Source of the DNA: Rhodothermales bacterium
Lineage (GTDB): Bacteria; Bacteroidota; Rhodothermia; Rhodothermales; UBA10348
Assembly: GCA_024711125.1 (NCBI GenBank)
Contig: JANJTM010000016.1
Location: 1 to 63,975, forward strand
Length of the DNA stretch: 63,975 bases
Reading direction: 5' to 3'
Shown here: piece by piece, positions 373-13,821 of the stretch
Layout: each line of letters opens with the position of its first letter
Numbering within the stretch: position 1 is the first letter of the stretch
Position numbers and translations under genes: made by a program
The notes under the pieces: model-generated
What the model was told of the DNA's origin: nothing
The model's database searches: none
Seen by the model: the letters and a program-made list of their open reading frames with translations, nothing else

Positions 373-3300
373 GTGCGCCCCTCCTCCCCGCTTCCGAACT
401 ACGGTCTCGAGCGCCCGCTCGGACCGGCCCGTGTCGTCTCGATCCTGCTCTGGGCCGCCTTCCTGGTGGTCGTCGCCTGGATCCCTCCGCGGGACCGGCC
501 GGGCAGACACCCGGCGTCGGCAGCCGACGGCGCGTGGCGGTCTGCGGTCGAGGCCACCATAGCCGGGTCGGAGTACCTGATCCAGGCGAACGGAGCGGGA
601 TTCACGAGCCCGAACCGCGCGCAGGGCCTGCGTTTCGACTACACGCCGGAGGCCTTCACGGTCAGACCGTCGCGCGGACCCGTCGCGTGGTCAGCCGGCC
701 TGCGCATCGACGGCGTCTACCGGGGCCCGGTGCGCACCGCGGTTCCGATCCCCACGGCGGCCGCGGCGGTCGAGGACGGACGGCTGCGTTTCGACCATGG
801 GACATTCCGCGCCGAATACACCAACGGAAAGCCCGGCATGCGCCAGGACTTCGTCATCCTCCGGCGTGCGGAAGGGCACGGCCCGTTGGCCGTTGCGCTC
901 GGGGTCGTGGGCGAGCTCTCCGGGCGCCTGGACCGTGGCAATACGTTTGTCCTGGTCGACGAAGCCGGCAACCGCAGGCTCCGGTATTCGGGACTCAAGG
1001 CATGGGACGCGCGGGGCACCACGCTGGAATCGCGCATGCGGTGGGACGGCAACTCGCTGTTCCTCGAAGTGGACGATGCGGAGGCCGTGTACCCGGTGAC
1101 GATCGATCCGCTGTCCTCGACGGCCGACTGGTCGTACGAACCCGACCAGGCGAACACATTTCTCGGAGAATCGGTGGCGTCGGCGGGCGACGTCAACGGG
1201 GACGGATTCGGCGATGTAATCGTAGGGGCGGCCCGGTTCGACGGGCCGGATGCCGACGAGGGTCGGGTCTTCGTCTTCTACGGTTCCGCCACGGGGCTTT
1301 CCGCGACACCCGACTGGACGGAAGAACTTGACCAGGCCGGCGCGCGATTCGGCTCCCGCGTCGCGTCGGCCGGCGACGTCAACGGGGACGGGTACGACGA
1401 CGTGATCATCGGCGCGGACCTCTACGACAACGGCACCCTCAACGAAGGGGCCGCGTTCGTCTATTTCGGAAGCGCCACCGGGCTCTCGTCCTCCCCCGAC
1501 TGGACGGCCGACTCCGGCCAGGCCGACTCGGCGTTCGGTTTCTTCGTCGCGGGGGCCGGAGACGTGAACAACGACGGGTTCGACGACGTGCTGGTCTCGG
1601 CCTACCAGTACGACAACGGGGAGAGCAACGAGGGCCGGGTCTACCTCTGGTTCGGTTCGGCGACCGGACCATCGGGTTCGCCGGACTGGACGGACGAGGT
1701 GGACCAGGTGAACGCGTTGCTGGGGCGGAGCGTCGCGGGTGTCGGTGACGTGAACGGTGACGGGTTCGACGATATCGCGGCGGGAGCCAACGAGTGGGAC
1801 GGAGGGCAGAGTGACGAGGGAGGGGCGTTCATCTACTACGGCTCGGGCACCGGACCGTCGGCGTCTCCCGACGTCACGCTCGAGCCCAACCAGGTAACGG
1901 CCTATTTCGGGCGCAGCGTGGCCGGCGCCGGGGACGTGAACGGTGACGGGTTCGACGACGTGATCGTCGGCTCGCCGGGGTATACCAACGGTCAGTCCGC
2001 GGAGGGCCGGGCCTGGGTATTCCACGGTTCCGGCGCCGGGCTCTCGTCCTCGGCCTCGTGGACCTTCGAGCCGGACCAGGCGAGCGCCAGCCTGGGCTTC
2101 AGCACGGCCGGCGTGGGAGACGTCAACGCCGACGGGTTCGACGACGTGATCGTGGGCGCCTATCTGTACGACAACGTCGAAGTCAACGAAGGGAGGGCAT
2201 ACGTCTTCCTCGGCTCGGGCGGGGGGCTGTCGGTATCGGCCGACTGGACCGCCGAACCCGACGTCGCGGATGCCTTTTTCGGGTCGACCGTATCGGCGGC
2301 GGGCGACGTGAACGGCGACGGCAAGGCCGACGTCCTCGTGGCCGCGCAGCGATACACCGACGGCCAGGCCCAGGAAGGCGCGGTCTTCGCCTACTACGGT
2401 TCCTGCGAGGGCTGCTTCGGCGTATCGGGCACCGACGGCCTGGGCAACGACACCGGGTGGCGCATGTTTGCCCCGCCGGTGGTCGGGGCCACGCGGGCCG
2501 ACATCGGGGACGACGTCGACCTTTCCGCAACCACCGGCACCACGTTGTACACGTACGACGGAGGGTATGTCCCCGTGTCGAACGACGCCACGGTCCTGGA
2601 CAACGGCCGCGGCTACCTGTTGTACATCTTCGACGACGCCACCGACCCGATCGGCGCCGGGGGTGTGGCGCTGACGCTCCCGGGTTCGGCGCCCGTGGGC
2701 GATGTCGCGGTGGGTTCCCTCGACGTCAACGACCAATGGCACCTGATGGGAAACCCGTTCGGCGCCTCTTTCGACCTGTCGTCGCTGGACCTGGCCGCGC
2801 AGGGCATGCAGACCACCGTACAGATCTGGGACTGGTCCGGAGGAGGATCGTGGACCCTCGTCACGCAGGACGCGGGAACGTCCGACGTGATCGCCAAGGG
2901 GCAGGGATTCTTCGTGGAACGCGCCGATCCCGGTCTTGGCGGAACCACGCTGACCTTCCTCGCGGCGGGGCAGACCACGGGCGGGACCCTGATCGGCGGA
3001 AAGCGCGGGTCGTCGTCGCCGGTGCGCATCGAACTTCATCTCGAGGCCGAAGACGCGTTCGGCACGGTGAGGGCATACGGCTCCACGGCGCGGCTGCTCT
3101 TCGACGATGCCGCATCCGAGCAATGGGACCCGTGGGACGCGTCACGTCTCCTCCCACCCTTCGCTCCGGAATACGCCGTCCTCGGCGTCTCGGGAATGCG
3201 CGGCACACGGCGCGTGGACCAGGCGCAGCGCAGCCATCCGGCCTCGTGGGCGGGCGATGCCTCCTTCCCTGTCGTCGTACGCACCAAGGGTGACTTCTCC

Positions 3301-3762
3301 CGGTTCCGAGTCCGCTGGCCGTCCCTGGAGAGCGTTCCACCGCACTGGACGCTGTCGCTGCGGGACGCGGCGACGGGCGCCGAAGTGGACCTGCGCACCG
3401 TCGACGAATACGTGATCGACGGTCCCGTGGCCGACGGACGACTGACCGTCGTGATCGGCAATGCGGAGGGCGTCGGCGTCAGTACCGGTGATCTGCCGGA
3501 CGGCTGGGTGCTCGAAGGCGCCTATCCGAATCCCTTCAACCCCTCGACCACGATCGTCTACCACGCGCCCGAAGCGTCCCGCGTTCTGCTGACCGTGCAT
3601 GACGCGCTCGGGCGCAGGGTAGCCACCCTGGTCGACGGCATCGTTCCGGCCGGAAAGCACGAGACGACGTTCGAGGGCAAGGGCCTTGCGAGCGGGGTCT
3701 ACCTGTATGCGCTCCGCACCGGTTCTCAGCACATCGTGCGTCGGATGACGCTGGCGAAATAG
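373..3762 (+). CDS. Secreted FG-GAP beta-propeller protein with T9SS-type C-terminal sorting domain
   Basis: Probable surface or secreted protein of about 1129 residues. A hydrophobic stretch (VVSILLWAAFLVVVAWIP) near the N-terminus looks like a signal anchor. Seven tandem units of about 62 residues follow, each with a calcium-binding-type GDVNGDGFDDVIVGA motif; such FG-GAP repeats form an integrin-like seven-bladed propeller. A later region resembles a beta-sandwich. The last ~85 residues carry AYPNPFNPSTTI and end GVYLYALRTG...RRMTLAK, as in type IX secretion sorting domains. The frame is open upstream through the tRNA gene, so the start must lie after it; GTG at 373 is the last good in-frame start before the hydrophobic segment, with no clear ribosome site. 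Function (adhesion, binding) is inferred from fold only. Confidence 0.8.
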   Translation: MRPSSPLPNYGLERPLGPARVVSILLWAAFLVVVAWIPPRDRPGRHPASAADGAWRSAVEATIAGSEYLIQANGAGFTSPNRAQGLRFDYTPEAFTVRPSRGPVAWSAGLRIDGVYRGPVRTAVPIPTAAAAVEDGRLRFDHGTFRAEYTNGKPGMRQDFVILRRAEGHGPLAVALGVVGELSGRLDRGNTFVLVDEAGNRRLRYSGLKAWDARGTTLESRMRWDGNSLFLEVDDAEAVYPVTIDPLSSTADWSYEPDQANTFLGESVASAGDVNGDGFGDVIVGAARFDGPDADEGRVFVFYGSATGLSATPDWTEELDQAGARFGSRVASAGDVNGDGYDDVIIGADLYDNGTLNEGAAFVYFGSATGLSSSPDWTADSGQADSAFGFFVAGAGDVNNDGFDDVLVSAYQYDNGESNEGRVYLWFGSATGPSGSPDWTDEVDQVNALLGRSVAGVGDVNGDGFDDIAAGANEWDGGQSDEGGAFIYYGSGTGPSASPDVTLEPNQVTAYFGRSVAGAGDVNGDGFDDVIVGSPGYTNGQSAEGRAWVFHGSGAGLSSSASWTFEPDQASASLGFSTAGVGDVNADGFDDVIVGAYLYDNVEVNEGRAYVFLGSGGGLSVSADWTAEPDVADAFFGSTVSAAGDVNGDGKADVLVAAQRYTDGQAQEGAVFAYYGSCEGCFGVSGTDGLGNDTGWRMFAPPVVGATRADIGDDVDLSATTGTTLYTYDGGYVPVSNDATVLDNGRGYLLYIFDDATDPIGAGGVALTLPGSAPVGDVAVGSLDVNDQWHLMGNPFGASFDLSSLDLAAQGMQTTVQIWDWSGGGSWTLVTQDAGTSDVIAKGQGFFVERADPGLGGTTLTFLAAGQTTGGTLIGGKRGSSSPVRIELHLEAEDAFGTVRAYGSTARLLFDDAASEQWDPWDASRLLPPFAPEYAVLGVSGMRGTRRVDQAQRSHPASWAGDASFPVVVRTKGDFSRFRVRWPSLESVPPHWTLSLRDAATGAEVDLRTVDEYVIDGPVADGRLTVVIGNAEGVGVSTGDLPDGWVLEGAYPNPFNPSTTIVYHAPEASRVLLTVHDALGRRVATLVDGIVPAGKHETTFEGKGLASGVYLYALRTGSQHIVRRMTLAK

Positions 3763-3843: not shown

Positions 3844-4047
3844 ATGCCCGACATCACCACCCCGGACCCCGAAGTCGCCGACGCAGCGGAGCGGCTTCCC
3901 TACGCGCCGCCGGAGCTTCGACGGCACGGCGACGTCGAGTCGCTGACCCAGGCCGAGTACGGCGGCCTGGATGCGGCGACGCACGGCCTGCTGTTCGCCA
4001 TGGCCAGCCCCGAGTTCGCGCCGGTGCCCGACGCGCCGATCCGATGA
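3844..4047 (+). CDS. Lasso-like RiPP precursor peptide (67 aa)
   Basis: Small peptide whose residues 20-35 read YAPPELRRHGDVESLT. This is an exact match to the lasso-peptide leader motif YxxPxLxxxGxxxxxT that PqqD-type recognition elements bind. In that family the Thr is the penultimate leader residue. The leader would then end at Q36, and the core would begin AEYGGLD, with Asp at core position 7, where a ring-closing acid can sit. The predicted core of about 31 residues is long for a lasso peptide and ends PDAPIR. The stop overlaps the next start (ATGA), and the four genes downstream encode matching modification enzymes. No ring-closing cyclase gene is nearby, so the final product is unknown. 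The call of precursor is strong; the call of a true lasso is not. Confidence 0.85.
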   Translation: MPDITTPDPEVADAAERLPYAPPELRRHGDVESLTQAEYGGLDAATHGLLFAMASPEFAPVPDAPIR

Positions 4048-4976
4048 GGCGGGAGACCCACGGGTGCCGCGCCGGGGGCCCTTTCGTCCTCCGGATGTAC
4101 GGATCGGTCGTCCGGAGCGATTGGCGGCTTCCGTTCGCCGAATGGCCGGCAGACACGCGCCCCGCCGTGACGATAACCCGGGACGACCGGCTGGCGATGC
4201 CGGCGGGTCACCGGGCGGACGGGCCGGTCGGTTTCCGCATCGACGAGCACGCGTGGTGGTTCGATTACCCCGATGCGGGGCTGTTCCGCATCGGTACATC
4301 GACCCTCACGGTGCGTCCGCACGACGGGGCAGACGACCGCGCCGTCGTGGAAACCCTCGCCGGACGATTGTCGGGCCTCCTGATGCGTCGTCGCGGCCGC
4401 CTGGTCCTGCACGCGAATGTCGTGGGCAAGGACGGGCATGCGGTCGTGCTCGCCGGACGCTCGGGTGCCGGCAAGACGACCCTGACGCGAGCGTTGCTCC
4501 ACCGGGGGTTCGAGTTCCTCTCGGACGACCTGGCCGTACTGGACGTCGGCGATGACCGGGTCGCGGTCGAGCCCGGTCCCGGGCGTCTGAAGGTGCGCAT
4601 GAGTCCGGGAATCCCCGGTCCCTCCGCGCCCGGCGAGCCCGCGGGCCGAGGAACGAGGGAGGTGGCCAAGACGGTGGAACCCGCGGAGGTGTCCGCCGCC
4701 CCTCACGAGGTATGCGCGGTGGTCGTCGTGGAAGCCGGCGCACCCTGGGCCTTCGATCGACTTCCCGCCTCGGACGCAGCGTTGGAACTCGTGCGCCACG
4801 CCCACATGCCCCGGTCCCTGGGGGTGACCGGGGCGGGCCGCCACCACCTGGCTGGGGCGACGAGACTGCTCGGATCGGTTTCCGCCCACCGGCTGTCGAG
4901 GGGAGAGGGCGCGGCCGATCTTTCGCGATCGGCGGATCGATTGTCGGCGATGCTTCACACACGGGGTGCGGCATGA
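4044..4976 (+). CDS. HPr-kinase-like protein of a RiPP cluster
   Basis: A 310-residue protein with a Walker A motif GRSGAGKTT (about residues 138-146), preceded by LVLHANVV and followed by FLSDDLAVL. This is the pattern of HPrK-like kinases found in lasso-peptide clusters. Known relatives (paeninodin PadeK type) phosphorylate the C-terminal serine of the precursor. The precursor here has no C-terminal serine; its only core serine lies in MASPEF. The target may therefore be that Ser, a Thr, or the enzyme may act differently. The N-terminal ~110 residues are poorly conserved, as is usual. The start overlaps the precursor stop and the stop overlaps the next start, both as ATGA, so expression is coupled. 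Cytoplasmic, no signal peptide. Confidence 0.8.
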   Translation: MRRETHGCRAGGPFVLRMYGSVVRSDWRLPFAEWPADTRPAVTITRDDRLAMPAGHRADGPVGFRIDEHAWWFDYPDAGLFRIGTSTLTVRPHDGADDRAVVETLAGRLSGLLMRRRGRLVLHANVVGKDGHAVVLAGRSGAGKTTLTRALLHRGFEFLSDDLAVLDVGDDRVAVEPGPGRLKVRMSPGIPGPSAPGEPAGRGTREVAKTVEPAEVSAAPHEVCAVVVVEAGAPWAFDRLPASDAALELVRHAHMPRSLGVTGAGRHHLAGATRLLGSVSAHRLSRGEGAADLSRSADRLSAMLHTRGAA

Positions 4977-6184
4977 CGCTCCCGCATCGTTTCTCCCGGA
5001 CGGAGTACCGGTTGCTGCTTGCCTGTCTGCGCCCACCGGTGACGAGGGATCCGCGCACGATTGCCGAGCTCGCGGCCTCACCCGACCTGGACCGCGTGCA
5101 GGTGTGTCGGTGGGCGGTCCTGCACGGCGCCGCGGGTTTCGTCGATCGCGCGCTGTCCGAATGCGGCGGCGACGTTCCGGACGACCTGAAGCACGAAATC
5201 GCCCGCCGAGCGGGGGCGGCCCGGATGCGGGCCCTGTTCCAGGTGTCCGTGCTCGCCGAAGTGGCCGACGGGCTCGAGGCTGCCGGGGTCCGCGCGTTGT
5301 CGATCAAGGGTCCTGCGCTCTCGGCGAGGCTGCACGGAGATCCGGCGATCAGGCCCTCGAACGACCTCGACTTCCTGGTGGACACCGATGGAGCGTCGAA
5401 CGCCCGTGGTGTCCTGTCCCGCCTCGGTTTCGTTCCGGCTCCGTCGAATGCCCGTGCGTTTGCCGCGACCCGCAATCCGGTCCCGCTCGAGTACCTGCGT
5501 CGCGGGGTCAAACTGGAATTGCACGAGCGCATGCTTCCGCACCTGGGCGCGGGTGAGCGCACGTTCGACACGCTCTGGAGGCATCGTGTCGCGGCGCGCG
5601 CGGGAAACCTCGACGTGGCCACCACCGGCACGGACGATACCGCGCTCCATCTCGCGCTGCACGGGTTCCGACACGGATTCTCGTGTCTGAAGTGGCTGGC
5701 CGACCTCGGAGTCCTGCTGACGCTGCGCAACGGGCCGGACTGGACGGCGGTGCGTGCCGCGGCACGGGCCCTGGGTCGCGAGAAGGCTCTCGTGCACGCG
5801 TACCGGGTCTCGGCAGAGGTCCTGGGCGTCGAACTGCCGACCGACCTGGAATCGGCGGACGCCGCGCGCGGACGCCCGGGCCGAAGCCACCTGCGCGCCA
5901 TGGAGCGTTCCTGGTTCCCGGACGGAAATCCGTCCCGGACGACCCGGGCCGCCGACCGGTTGAGGTTTCGCATACCGGGCCTCGGTCCGGTCGAGGCGCT
6001 CAGGGAGATGTGGTCGATGCTGTTCCGTCCTTCGGTCGAGGACTGGGCGGTGTTCCCGTTCCTGTCGCCCGACCTTCCGCTCGTCTTCTCGATCGTGCGC
6101 CCGCTGCGGCTCGCGGTCATGGCCGGACGATCGCTCGTCGGCGACCTGTCGCCGCGACAGGGAGCAACGGAGATACGGGCGTGA
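4973..6184 (+). CDS. Nucleotidyltransferase-family protein of the RiPP cluster
   Basis: A 403-residue protein of the nucleotidyltransferase-fold family often found beside lasso-type B1/B2 genes. The central segment SIKGPALSARLHG followed by IRPSNDLDFLV (about residues 105-130) carries the family's GPxLA...RxxxDLDxLV active-site signature with the metal-binding Asp pair. A helical C-terminal half follows (about 150-400). The start chosen is ATG at 4973, which overlaps the kinase stop by four bases. The stop overlaps the GTG of the next gene. Its role in RiPP maturation is not settled in known clusters; nucleotidyl transfer to the peptide or to an intermediate is an inference. Confidence 0.78.
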   Translation: MTLPHRFSRTEYRLLLACLRPPVTRDPRTIAELAASPDLDRVQVCRWAVLHGAAGFVDRALSECGGDVPDDLKHEIARRAGAARMRALFQVSVLAEVADGLEAAGVRALSIKGPALSARLHGDPAIRPSNDLDFLVDTDGASNARGVLSRLGFVPAPSNARAFAATRNPVPLEYLRRGVKLELHERMLPHLGAGERTFDTLWRHRVAARAGNLDVATTGTDDTALHLALHGFRHGFSCLKWLADLGVLLTLRNGPDWTAVRAAARALGREKALVHAYRVSAEVLGVELPTDLESADAARGRPGRSHLRAMERSWFPDGNPSRTTRAADRLRFRIPGLGPVEALREMWSMLFRPSVEDWAVFPFLSPDLPLVFSIVRPLRLAVMAGRSLVGDLSPRQGATEIRA

Positions 6185-6453
6185 AACTGGGCATCACACC
6201 CGACGCTTTCGCCTCGAGACCGTCGCCGGGCGAGGTCGTACTGCTCAACGGGCGAACCGGGGAGTATTTCTCGCTGGACGGGGTCGGAGCCTATGCCTGG
6301 ACGATGCTGGAGGAGGGACCGAAGAGCCTGCCGGAGCTGATCGAGGCCGTATCGGCGAGCTACGCGGTGGGCATTGAACGATGTCGGGGCGACCTGGAGC
6401 GGTTCGCGGTCGCGCTCGAGGCGGCCGGGCTCGTCGTCTCACTCCCCGATTGA
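6181..6453 (+). CDS. PqqD-family RiPP recognition element (lasso B1-like)
   Basis: A 90-residue PqqD-fold protein. It shows the typical strand pattern EVVLLNGRTGEYFSLDGVGA, then the helical segment AWTMLEEGPKSLPELIEAV, then a helix ending LEAAGLVV. In lasso systems this small protein (B1) binds the leader of the precursor through the YxxPxL part and hands it to the B2 peptidase. Both partners are present here. GTG at 6181 overlaps the upstream stop (GTGA), and four bases separate it from the B2 gene. Confidence 0.87.
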   Translation: MKLGITPDAFASRPSPGEVVLLNGRTGEYFSLDGVGAYAWTMLEEGPKSLPELIEAVSASYAVGIERCRGDLERFAVALEAAGLVVSLPD

Positions 6454-6457
6454 GGAC

Positions 6458-6973
6458 ATGGGGTACCCGATCCTACGGACGCTTCGCCGACTGCGCCCAC
6501 GCAGGAGTGTGGATGCCGTGCTCCTGGTCCGCGCCTTCTTCGAGGTCGTTCGAGCAGGGCGACGAGCCCGAAATCACCTCCCGGGTACCGCCGATCGCAT
6601 CGTTGCGGCCGGATCGCCCCCGGGGAGTACGCTCTGCCGCGAGAGGCGACCGGTCTCTCCCGAGCGGGCCGCGGCCGCCGTCGATCGTCTCGGAAGCGTG
6701 CTGCTGGGTTCCGATCAGTGTCTCGCGAAGGCTCTCGCCCTGCGATCGCTGCTCGCCCGACGTGGAATGGCGACCACGCTCCACATCGGGACGCGGGCCG
6801 ATGGACCCGGCTGGCGGGCTCACGCATGGCTCGAGTACGACGGTTCCGTGCTCATCGGCCGGCTGCCGGATCTGCACGAATACTCGCGGTTCGTGCCCGC
6901 GGCCAGGAAACAAACAGCACACAATCGTGACGAACGGGGACGAACAGCCCCGGACATGGGCCGTTCAGACTGA
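6458..6973 (+). CDS. Lasso B2-type transglutaminase-fold leader peptidase
   Basis: A 171-residue cysteine protease of the lasso peptide biosynthesis B2 family, which cuts the leader just after the Thr-x pair. The catalytic Cys lies in GSDQCLAKALALRSLL (about residue 88), and the catalytic His lies in WRAHAWLEYDG (about 122), with an acidic residue shortly after. The N-terminal ~80 residues form the helical part typical of the family. The basic C-terminal tail (about residues 150-171) looks unconserved. ATG at 6458 has GAGGA just upstream. It is the last gene of the operon, and no asparagine-synthetase-like cyclase follows. Confidence 0.85.
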   Translation: MGYPILRTLRRLRPRRSVDAVLLVRAFFEVVRAGRRARNHLPGTADRIVAAGSPPGSTLCRERRPVSPERAAAAVDRLGSVLLGSDQCLAKALALRSLLARRGMATTLHIGTRADGPGWRAHAWLEYDGSVLIGRLPDLHEYSRFVPAARKQTAHNRDERGRTAPDMGRSD

Positions 6974-6996: not shown

Positions 6997-8370
6997 ATGA
7001 CGATGCGACCATGCGGGCCGACGGCCCGCATCCTGACGTTTGTTTTCGCGACGATCGTAGTCTCTGCCTGCGGAACCGACACCGGAGGTCCCGCCGCCGG
7101 CATGCCGGGCGGAGGCCCCCCGGGCGGCGGTCGCCCCGGCGCTGGGGTCGTGCCGGCCGTGGAGGTGGTGCAGGCCAAGATGGGATCCCTTCCGCTCACC
7201 GAGCGCCTGAGCGGCACGGTGCGGGCCCAGAACCAGGTCGTGCTCTACGCCGAGATCTCGGCGCCCGTCGAGCGGGTGGCGGTGCGAAACGGCGATTTCG
7301 TGCAGGCCGGAGCGCCGCTGGTATACCTGCGCGACAAGCAGTACCAGGATCAGCTACGCCAGCAGGAGGCCGCGCTCCAGATCGCGGTGGCCGACCAGCG
7401 GCGCACGGCGGCCTCGCTGACCGAACTGCGTGCACGGCTCGACCGGGCTCGGCAGCTCGCCGAGAAGGAATTCCAGAGCGCGGCCGACCTGGAACTGCTC
7501 CAGGCGCAGGTCGCCGGCGCCGAGGCGGCCGACGAGCAGGCGAAGGCTCGCATCGCGCAGGCCGAGGCCAATCTCGAGGAGCAGCGTGAGGCCGTTCGGC
7601 GCACGGTCGTCCGTGCTCCCGTCGCAGGCACGATCGGAGGGCGCAACGTGGAAGTGGGCATGCGGGTCGATCCCAGCCGCCCGCTCTTCACGATCGGCGA
7701 CCTGTCGAAGGTGCGCGTGGACGTTTCGGTCACCGACCGCATGATGGACCGCATCCGAGTGGGCCAGACTGCCCTGATCACGGTGGAGGGCTCCGAGGGT
7801 GGCGCCATCGAGGCCGCGGTGAGCCGCATTTCTCCGTTTCTCGAGGTAGGGAGCTACTCGGCGGCCGCCGAGATCGACCTTCCGAACCCCGACAGCCGGC
7901 TCCGGCCGGGCATGTTCGTCGCGGTCGACGTGCTGTACGGGGAATCTGAGCCGGCGACGGTGGTGCCCGAGGCGGCGATCTACGAGGATCCGAACAGCGG
8001 CGTGATCGGTGCCTTCGTGGCGACGTCGCTGCGCAGCGAAACGCCCGTCGAGGAGCCCGAGTCGTACGATCCGCAGAATCCGCCCGCGCTCGTCGGGCCG
8101 ACGCCGGTGCGCTTCCAGCCGCTCGAAGTGCTGGCGCGCGGACGCGGCCTGGCGGGCGTATCGGGACTCGAGGCCGGGGAATGGGTGCTGACCGTCGGCC
8201 AGCATCTCATCCGCTCGGTGGACGGCACGGGCCAGGTGCAGGCGCGCCCGGTGCCGTGGTCCCGCGTCGCCGAACTGCAGCGCCTGCTCGATCGCGACCT
8301 GCTGCTCAAGTTCCTGGAGAAACAGCAGCGCCTCGCCCGGGAGTCGTTCGGCCAGGCGACGGCCGAGTAG
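6997..8370 (+). CDS. RND efflux periplasmic adaptor lipoprotein
   Basis: Membrane fusion protein of a tripartite efflux pump. The N-terminal signal ends in the lipobox VSAC, followed by a Gly/Pro-rich linker. A first biotinyl-lipoyl half (SGTVRAQNQVVLYAEISAP), a long alpha-helical hairpin rich in Gln, Glu and Ala (about residues 100-205), the second lipoyl half (VVRAPVAGTIGGRNVEVG) and a beta-barrel domain follow in order. A barrel insertion mentions no known ligand. The 457-residue length is on the large side because of a C-terminal extension. It sits 24 bases after the RiPP operon and 66 bases before the pump gene. A role in exporting the RiPP product is possible but unproven. Confidence 0.85.
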   Translation: MTMRPCGPTARILTFVFATIVVSACGTDTGGPAAGMPGGGPPGGGRPGAGVVPAVEVVQAKMGSLPLTERLSGTVRAQNQVVLYAEISAPVERVAVRNGDFVQAGAPLVYLRDKQYQDQLRQQEAALQIAVADQRRTAASLTELRARLDRARQLAEKEFQSAADLELLQAQVAGAEAADEQAKARIAQAEANLEEQREAVRRTVVRAPVAGTIGGRNVEVGMRVDPSRPLFTIGDLSKVRVDVSVTDRMMDRIRVGQTALITVEGSEGGAIEAAVSRISPFLEVGSYSAAAEIDLPNPDSRLRPGMFVAVDVLYGESEPATVVPEAAIYEDPNSGVIGAFVATSLRSETPVEEPESYDPQNPPALVGPTPVRFQPLEVLARGRGLAGVSGLEAGEWVLTVGQHLIRSVDGTGQVQARPVPWSRVAELQRLLDRDLLLKFLEKQQRLARESFGQATAE

Positions 8371-8435
8371 CCGACCGAAGACCCGACTCCACCGCCGATC
8401 AAGCCCCCGGAGCCCGGCTCCCAGACCCCGCGCGT

Positions 8436-11400
8436 ATGGCCTCCCTGACCGATACCTCGATCAAGCGACCCGTCGCCACGTCGATGGCCTACCTCGTGAT
8501 CATCACGGTGGGCATCGTCGGATTCCTGTTCCTCCCGGTCGACCTGCTTCCGCCCGTCGAGTTCACCCGGCTCACGGTCTTCACGAGCTACCCGAACGTG
8601 GGGCCCGAGGAGATGGAGCAGATCGTGACCGACCCGGTCGAGAACGCGCTCTCGGGCATCCCGAACCTGGACCGCATCTCGTCGCGCTCGTCCGAAGGCT
8701 CGAGCATGGTGACGCTCGAGTTCGCGCGCGGAACGAACATCGACGAAGCGTCGAACGACGTCAGGTCGGCGCTCGACCGCATCCGAAGATCGCTTCCGCC
8801 CGAAGTCGACCAGCCCGTCATCTGGAAGTTCGACCCGAACAACTTCGCGATCGTGACGATCGCGGTCGAGTCGCGTCGCCCGATGGAGGAGGTGACGCGG
8901 CTCCTTGAACGCGACCTCTCGAACCGGTTCGAGCAGATTCCCGGGGTCGGAACGGTCGAATTGCGCGGCGGCGTCAACCGCCAGATCCACGTCGACCTGG
9001 AGCGCGACCGGCTCCTTGCGGCCGGGCTCACGCCGGCCGACGTGCAGGCGGCCCTGGCGCGCGAGAACCAGACGCTACCGGGCGGAAACGTGAAGGAGGG
9101 CCTGAGGGACCTCTACGTGCGCTCGCAGGGCGAATACACGTCGGTGGCCCAGATCGCCGAAACGGTGATCCGGTACGTCGACGACCGGCCGATCCGCGTG
9201 CGGGACGTCGCGCGGGTCGAGGACGGGTACGAGGACGTGCGTTTCCTTTCGGAGCTGGACGGCGTTCCGATCATCCGCGTCCAGATCCAGAAGCAGAGCG
9301 GCGCCAACACCGTGACGGTGGCCGACGCCATCGTCGCCGAGGTGGGCCGGATCAACGCGGAGCATTCGGACCTGCGGATGAAGGTGATTTCGGACCAGTC
9401 GACCTTCATCCGCCAGTCGATCGACAACGTGCGCAGTTCGGCCGTCTGGGGCGGTCTGCTGGCGATCCTTGTCCTTTACCTCTTCCTGCGCAACGGCTCG
9501 TCGACGTCGATCATCGCGATCGCGATCCCGATTTCGGTGGTGGCCACCTTCGGCGTGCTCTACTACGGGGGCATGACGCTGAACCAGATGACGTTCGGAG
9601 GTCTCGCCCTCGGCATCGGCATGATGGTGGACAACGGCATCGTGGTGCTCGAAAACATCGTGCGACACCGCGAGGAGCACCGGATGTCCATCCTCGAATC
9701 GGCCCGCGTGGGCACGCGCGAGGTGGTGGGCGCCATCATCGCGTCGACGCTCACCACGATCGTGATCTTCCTGCCCATCGGGTTCATGCAGACGACGATC
9801 GGAGATCTCTTCACCGCGCTGGCGCTGGTGGTGGTGTTCTCGCTCGTCTGCTCGCTCATGGTCGCGCTCACGCTGATTCCCGTGCTTGCGTCGCGTTTCC
9901 TGAACGTCAAGCTGCCCGAAGAGGGCAAGCCGATCCATGCGTCGGGCTTCCAGAAGTGGTTCGACGGGCTCGAGCAGAAGTACTCGGCTTCGCTGCGCAC
10001 GGTCGTCCGGCACCGGAAGCTCGTGGCGGGCGTCTCGTTCACGCTGGTCGCCGCCGCGTTCGCCGCGTTTCCGCTGATCCCCGTGGAACTGGCGCCGCAG
10101 ACCGATGCCGACGAGATCCAGGTCACGATGGAAATGTCGCAGGGCACCAACGTGGCCGTCGTGCAGGCCTACCTGCAGGAGCTCGAGCAGGCCGTGCGGC
10201 CGCTTCTGCCGATGGACCAGGTGCGCGAAGTGGCGACCGAAACCCGGTTCGGAAACGCACAGGTGACGGTCCGGCTGAAGGACCCCTCGGAGCGCACCAT
10301 CGAGAGCCAGGCCCTGGCCGACGATCTTCGACGCAAACTGGTGTCGGCGGTACCCGGTGCCGAGATCCGGGTAGAGGCGCAATCCGGCCTCTGGGTGCTC
10401 CGGCGCCTGTTCTCCACGGGAACGGGCAACGAGGCCGTGCAGATCGAGCTGCGCGGGTACGATCTCGACGTGGCCGACATCACGGCGCGCGAGATCATGG
10501 GCCGAGTGGAGCGGATTCCGGGCGTGACGGGCGTTCGCCTGTCGCGACGCGAAGGTCGGCCGGAGCAGAACCTCGAATTCGACCGGGAGAAGATCGCGAG
10601 CCTCGGCCTGTCGGTACAGCAGGTCGGCCGTGCCATCCAGACCTCGGTGGGCGGAAGCCGCGCGGGGCAGTTCCGGGAAGGCGGGGACGAATATCCGATC
10701 ATCGTGCGTCTGCGCCCCGAGGACCGGCTCACCGTGCAGGACCTCGACGACATCGCCGTGCGCACGCCGGCGGGCGAAACCATCCCGGTCGCGTCGCTCG
10801 TGCTGCCGGTGCGCGGTCGGGCGCCCACCACGATCGAACGCAAGGACGGCGTGCGGGTCAACTACGTCTACGCCACGCTCGAGAAGGGCGTCGCGCTGGG
10901 CGATGCCGTGGAGGCCATCCGTTCCGACCTGTCGCGCATGAACCTGCCGGACGGCTTCTCCATCGCGTTCAGCGGCGAGTACGAGGAGCAGCAGAAAGCC
11001 CAAACGGACTTCCTGATCGCCGTCCTGCTCGCGCTCGCCCTGATCTACATGGTCATGGCCGGCCAGTTCGAGCGGTATCTCGACCCGCTGATCGTGATGT
11101 TCGCGGTGCCCGTGGCGATCATCGGCGTCGTGCCGACCATGCTGCTCACCGGCACCACGTTCAACATGCAGTCGATCATGGGCATGGTGATGCTCATCGG
11201 CATCGTGGTCAACAACGCCATCGTTCTCGTCGACTACGTGAACCTGCTGCGTCGCGAGCAGGGCATGGCGCTGCTCGATTCGGTGGTCGAGGCGGGTCGC
11301 CTGCGGCTGCGACCGATCGCGATGACGACGCTTACGACCGTGCTCGGACTGCTGCCGCTCGCGCTCGGCATCGGGGCGGGTGCCGAGATCCAGGCCTCCC

Positions 11401-11570
11401 TCGCCCGCGTCGTGATCGGCGGTCTCACCGCTTCGACGCTCGTCACGCTCGTCCTCATTCCCGTGGTCTACGTTTCGGCCCACGGGGCACTCGACCGGCT
11501 GCGCGCATGGTCCGAGGCGCGGCGCGGGCCGGCGCCTTCGATGGTGGCGGTTCCGTCCGAGCCCTCCTGA
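8436..11570 (+). CDS. RND-family inner-membrane efflux transporter (HAE1 type)
   Basis: A 1044-residue proton-driven pump starting [17 protein letters not shown], the usual cytoplasmic N-terminus followed by TM1. Two large periplasmic loops and two blocks of TM helices are present. TM4 carries [16 protein letters not shown], where the proton-relay Asp-Asp of E. coli AcrB is Asp-Asn, a common variant in this branch. TM10 carries [18 protein letters not shown]. Start chosen at ATG 8436; an upstream open stretch overlaps the adaptor gene and is not coding. It pairs with the adaptor; no outer-membrane channel gene is seen, so TolC would be encoded elsewhere. Confidence 0.92.

Positions 11571-12471: not shown

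Positions 12472-13821
<1,350 letters not shown>

Follow-up and report, generated by a model that had tools for sequence, protein, structure and literature searches.

Linear polyphosphorylated peptides (LPP) were described in Bacillota by Popov et al. in 2026 (PMC13381572) and are the known system closest to the five-gene operon of a Rhodothermales bacterium (genome G000) analysed here. LPP clusters and this operon have in common a YxxP leader (YxxPx[V/L] in LPP) with Thr at its cleavage end, a discrete PqqD-type RRE, an HprK-like kinase, an NTP transferase and the lack of a cyclase. They differ in the peptidase, which is SpI-like in LPP, whereas the operon encodes a B2 enzyme and no SpI among its five genes; in the MsbA-like transporter of LPP, which the operon lacks, being followed instead by genes for HlyD and RND proteins; and in the precursor, which in LPP reads YxxPxVLxHQxIxFETxxS with Ser3, and here YxxPxLxxxGxxxxxT with Tyr at core position 3. 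Further to that, LPP are restricted to Bacillota and have highly variable C termini, while the present type is found in Rhodothermales and has a conserved core. We conclude that the operon is closest to LPP and would work alike, yet is not to be classed as LPP.

The phosphorylated lasso peptides (paeninodin, pseudomycoidin and Bsf) share with the operon the leader, RRE, B2 peptidase, HprK-like kinase and nucleotidyltransferase (PsmN, BsfN), but they are marked by a cyclase, a ring acceptor at positions 7–9 and Ser as the phosphate acceptor (C-terminal or Ser3). By the cyclase test, as read from the genome sequence, the operon is not a lasso peptide cluster. The HPr-rel-A system (TIGR04352/TIGR04353) also combines an HprK-related kinase with a PqqD-like protein, but the G000 proteins fall far under the cut-offs of both equivalogs, with 56.5 of 200 for the kinase (TIGR04352, E=2e-15) and 19.5 of 35 for TIGR04353. 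The HPr-rel-A definition is not known to include a lasso-leader precursor.

We suggest that the operon, rather than being a broken lasso cluster, probably adds a new branch to the linear phosphorylated peptides reported in 2026. An initial annotation of this DNA had proposed a cyclase-free, probably linear modified peptide of a possibly undescribed RiPP class. The first part is supported, as no cyclase is found in G000 and this state is kept, with a conserved core, in a relative (G014), while "undescribed class" is too strong because LPP already show the same logic (PMC13381572).

The five genes and their neighbours

The operon occupies positions 3844–6973 of the window, that is, of the whole stretch of 63,975 nucleotides analysed, and sits 3.8 kb from the left end of its contig. 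Its five genes, all intact and tightly coupled on the forward strand, encode a 67-aa precursor peptide (3844..4047), an HprK-like peptide kinase (4044..4976), a PF14907 nucleotidyltransferase (NTP_transf_5, 4973..6184), a PqqD-type discrete, B1-like RRE with a GTG start (6181..6453) and a transglutaminase-like B2 leader peptidase (6458..6973). Three junctions are 4-base stop/start overlaps (ATGA, ATGA and GTGA) and the fourth is a 4-base gap. Genes, positions and junctions are all as first annotated, and profile searches back each identity. A promoter and terminator scan found nothing. The genes that begin 24 nt past B2 (6997..11570, +) encode an HlyD-type fusion protein (PF16576/PF13437) and an AcrB-type RND pump (PF00873); the pair is a possible but unproven exporter of the peptide, and its adjacency to the operon is not seen at the loci of the two relatives described below (G014 and G419). 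Directly upstream of the operon (436–3762, +) lies a gene for a large protein of FG-GAP repeats whose C terminus resembles a secretion tail, and at 12472–13821 (−) one for a trigger-factor-like protein with a long terminal His/Asp tail (HDHDHDHHHHDHDHDHDHDH), perhaps metal-binding.

The precursor scores 21.3 bits against the lasso leader profile NF033521 (cut-off 19), has two homologues in G014 and a further one in G419, and resembles the neighbouring genes in codon-position GC. The RRE-binding motif of its leader, Y20-x-x-P23-x-L25-x3-G29-x5-T35 (positions −17 to −2; 3901..3948, +), is an exact match to the YxxPxLxxxGxxxxxT pattern claimed for it. Characterised lasso leaders have the register Y-17/P-14/L-12/T-2 (PMC10368454), and by applying it (the T-2 rule) we placed the core start at Ala37, in agreement with the residue 37 put forward in the initial annotation. 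The predicted core, AEYGGLDAATHGLLFAMASPEFAPVPDAPIR, is encoded at 3952..4044 (+), with the Tyr3 codon at 3958–3960.

Besides TIGR04352, the kinase also scores under the curated cut-off of PF07475 (22.3 of 33.3). Its predicted fold (mean pLDDT 78) matches the HPr kinase 1ko7 with a Z of 13.6 and an rmsd of 2.6 over 130 residues, and PEPCK with a Z of 15. His123, the Walker Lys144 and Asp161-Asp162 are intact, and the clade motif is RHAH[ML]PRSL; a His-Lys-Asp-Asp catalytic set of this kind is known from lasso peptide kinases (PMC9266682, PMC10368454). With both this catalytic set and the modelled HprK/PEPCK fold present, the predicted enzyme is HprK-like. The nucleotidyltransferase matches PF14907 at 141.8 bits (cut-off 31.2, E=3.5e-41) and carries the motif KGP...NDLDFLV. 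Among solved structures, the PqqD-like RRE, which reaches 57.5 bits against PF05402 (cut-off 23.4), comes closest to TbiB1 (E=3.6e-11), an RRE from a lasso cluster. The B2 protein scores 67.5 bits against NF033537 lasso_biosyn_B2 (cut-off 33) and 62.3 bits against PF13471, and alignment with other B2s shows that the Cys and His (QC...HAW) and the downstream Asp (LPD) are retained; its sequence gave no match among solved structures. A lasso-type leader motif, a B1-type RRE and a B2 peptidase are all three present in the operon.

The search for a cyclase and for relatives

A lasso cyclase had been reported missing on both sides of the operon. None is there, and a profile search of the whole G000 genome (3.79 Mb in 81 contigs, 99.3% complete) returned zero matches to the lasso cyclase NF033535. 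The sole PF00733 (Asn_synthase) match, at 22.6 bits, is a 435-aa protein on contig 56 adjoining a glycosyltransferase, which was considered as a hidden cyclase and rejected on its score (20.9–22.6 bits), its lack of any lasso-cyclase score and its neighbour. Lasso cyclases in other genomes of the same order score 597–714 bits, and family-wide none of 27 genomes rises above the lasso cyclase cut-off. Of the 37 B2 loci fetched from relatives in the phylum, 17 come with a cyclase-like ORF in the fetched stretch. The other 20 lack one, and several of these are cut by contig ends. As cyclase-free B2 loci are common in the phylum, a missing neighbour cyclase alone is weak evidence of novelty; the novelty claim is carried by the genome-wide cyclase absence together with the conserved core.

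Comparison of gene order across genomes, as the initial annotation had advised, brings out the same state in another genus. Genome G014 (same family, 98% complete) carries the kinase, nucleotidyltransferase, RRE and B2 in the order seen in G000. This operon lies midway along a 2.1-Mb contig, and its precursor gene and B2 face each other tail to tail. The genome has no lasso cyclase near the operon or elsewhere, and only an AsnB-like protein, on a separate contig, whose 156 bits fall well under the cut-off of 525. Its core, AEYGGLDQLLFGSLFAMASPGLPSAPSR, matches that of G000, and an orphan second precursor with the same AEYGGLD core lies on another contig (L163:8878-9105, C2:297377) with no maturation genes nearby. 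The cyclase-free state is conserved. In another genome of G014's genus (G015, C118), a short B2 fragment (L034:11011-11106) is probably the relic of a lost operon.

A Rhodothermales MAG (G419, JALSSK010000036) has the precursor, with the core AEYGDLTTAKYGDLFGSRTI, the kinase and the nucleotidyltransferase at a locus without PqqD and B2. Its cyclase-bearing clusters lie on other contigs and have their own kinases, one of them also its own recognisable lasso precursor. Near the G419 precursor locus there is an exosortase X gene (L131:10200-10805), and a sugar-epimerase-like gene lies in the region. A kinase and precursor search of the order found the locus in 3 of 114 genomes (a thin sample of draft assemblies with gaps), and a kinase-profile search of 84,980 species returned the G419 locus as the only close relative, other matches being distant kinases. 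Precursor-profile scans of the phylum and the order yielded no further members, their weak matches being ordinary leader-motif precursors, and a scan of a plasmid collection gave one weak kinase match.

When the four precursors (one each from G000 and G419, two from G014) are aligned, the leader Y, P, L, G and T are invariant, as are A37, E38, Y39, G40, L42, G48, L50 and F51 of the core. The core is more conserved than the leader; each of the four carries Tyr at core position 3, and in G000 and G014 the core follows the pattern TQ/TK-AEYGGLD....G.LFAMASP. Change in the core codons is mostly synonymous (dN 0.18–0.34, dS 1.2–2.2, values that are indicative as they come from 23 codons only), and in the alignment the core can be seen by eye to hold two loose copies of an eight-residue unit (A-x-aromatic-G-x-L). 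The C termini are R, R, R and I, with no C-terminal Ser. Asp occupies core position 7 in three of the four and would be possible, though rare, as a ring acceptor; the G419 core has no Asp or Glu at 7–9. Precursors of cyclase-bearing clusters in the same order nearly all have Asp or Glu at 7–9, and many end in Ser.

Proposed product, alternatives and origin

We consider it fairly likely that the operon produces a linear, phosphorylated RiPP, LPP-like in its working and released by the B2 peptidase. The chemistry we infer is as follows. The PqqD-like RRE would bind the YxxPxL leader, and the HprK-like kinase would phosphorylate a core hydroxyl, the two candidates being Tyr at position 3 and a conserved Ser in the ASP stretch. 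The PF14907 transferase would then add a nucleotidyl or hexosyl cap to the phosphate, the product being perhaps nucleotidylated or glycosylated, and the B2 peptidase, guided by the RRE, would cut after residue 36 and free AEYGGLD... without a macrolactam ring.

In paeninodin and pseudomycoidin, HprK-like kinases act on the C-terminal Ser, and in the latter PsmN adds hexose to the phosphoserine (PMC9266682). BsfK (PMC10368454) and LppK (PMC13381572) phosphorylate strictly core residue 3, and neither phosphorylates S3Y variants. As the focal precursors have neither a C-terminal Ser nor Ser3, the acceptor would be Tyr3 or the Ser of the ASP stretch. The Ser is a plausible choice at somewhat under even probability, and Tyr3 may be put forward a little more tentatively; a Tyr acceptor would be without precedent and is a prediction, since BsfK and LppK rejected it. 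A further-reaching idea, which we regard as doubtful, is that of a second, independently evolved cyclase-free RiPP family outside Bacillota, in which an HprK-type tyrosine kinase would act on Tyr3 of the invariant AEYG and the PF14907 enzyme would cap the phosphotyrosine.

A true lasso peptide with an Ala1-Asp7 ring, its cyclase unassembled, acting from elsewhere or replaced by an unrelated enzyme, is unlikely. The leader, RRE and B2 are all lasso-type, Asp7 is present in most of the precursors and the G000 operon lies close to a contig end; the G014 operon, however, is mid-contig, and the AsnB-like protein of that genome falls under the cyclase cut-off. G000 has no PF00733 or NF033535 cyclase, its lone weak PF00733 match standing beside a glycosyltransferase, and none of the 27 family genomes passes the cut-off. 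The G419 core, moreover, offers no acceptor at 7–9, and the cyclase clusters of that genome are separately located and come with kinases, and in one case a precursor, of their own. The missing cyclase could also mean that what is left of a lasso cluster is decaying here and has lost its function, and the patchy occurrence, the relic-like B2 fragment in G015 and the lack of RRE and B2 at the G419 locus agree with that. Such decay is nevertheless quite unlikely, given that the five overlapping frames are all intact and keep their catalytic residues, that two genera carry this set undamaged, that the core blocks are identical and their codons differ mostly at synonymous sites, that G014 has a second conserved precursor, and that the kinases form a cyclase-free clade, which recent loss in a single genome would not produce.

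The precursor might instead be a peptide with an intracellular regulatory or a surface-polysaccharide role, phosphorylated and nucleotidylated for the control of exopolysaccharide, with no natural product released. The exosortase X and sugar-epimerase-like genes beside the G419 locus point that way, as does the position of LPP and paeninodin clusters in capsular polysaccharide loci (PMC13381572). On the other hand, the B2 leader peptidase encoded at two of the three loci implies that the core is released, and no obvious polysaccharide genes adjoin the G000 and G014 loci, which leaves this reading distinctly unlikely.

For the preferred reading, a linear phosphorylated peptide, the trees suggest an origin. 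The kinases of G000, G014 and G419 form one clade (SH-aLRT 99), which sits beside or among kinases mainly from cyclase-bearing lasso clusters, in a part of the tree where deep branches are weak. The nucleotidyltransferases of G000 and G014 pair (SH-aLRT 99), as do their B2s (88), while the G419 nucleotidyltransferase falls outside the pair and for this reason may have been replaced. Going by these sequence trees, the most likely ancestor of the gene set is a lasso cluster that had a kinase, the cyclase being lost before or during the spread of the set in Rhodothermales; descent with cyclase loss would be the simplest account.

Consequences for genome mining and other loci

If the proposed reading is true, recognition of lasso-type leaders and proteolysis by B2 can do without ring closure, and Bacillota are not alone in having the phosphorylated, cyclase-free branch of this chemistry. 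The locus would also provide a test of kinase specificity, as the two characterised RiPP kinases that act at residue 3 reject the very residue always found there in these precursors. In genome mining, such loci would be misannotated wherever every B2 or PqqD set is called a lasso cluster; about half of the fetched B2 loci in the phylum have no cyclase in the stretch.

Several other loci were seen in the course of the analysis. In genus g11 (stretches L042, L045, L048, L054 and L068, from G034, G029, G076, G084 and G176), B2 and PqqD occupy a conserved place, and the stretches as fetched contain no cyclase and no leader-motif precursor; L042, L045 and L054 clearly show the full order NTase-B2-HprK-PqqD. 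This is another cyclase-free lasso-toolkit locus. B2/PqqD loci with no strong lasso cyclase in the stretch, some with NTase and HprK added, are also found in L036, L043, L052, L055, L064, L066 and L069, of which some are cut by contig ends and two, L066 and L069, contain a weak asparagine-synthetase-like ORF. Precursors that have the leader motif and a C-terminal Ser occur at L165:8607-8870 (G056) and L167:8908-9084 (G200), in stretches without B2 or cyclase, and L165 has PqqD and HprK.
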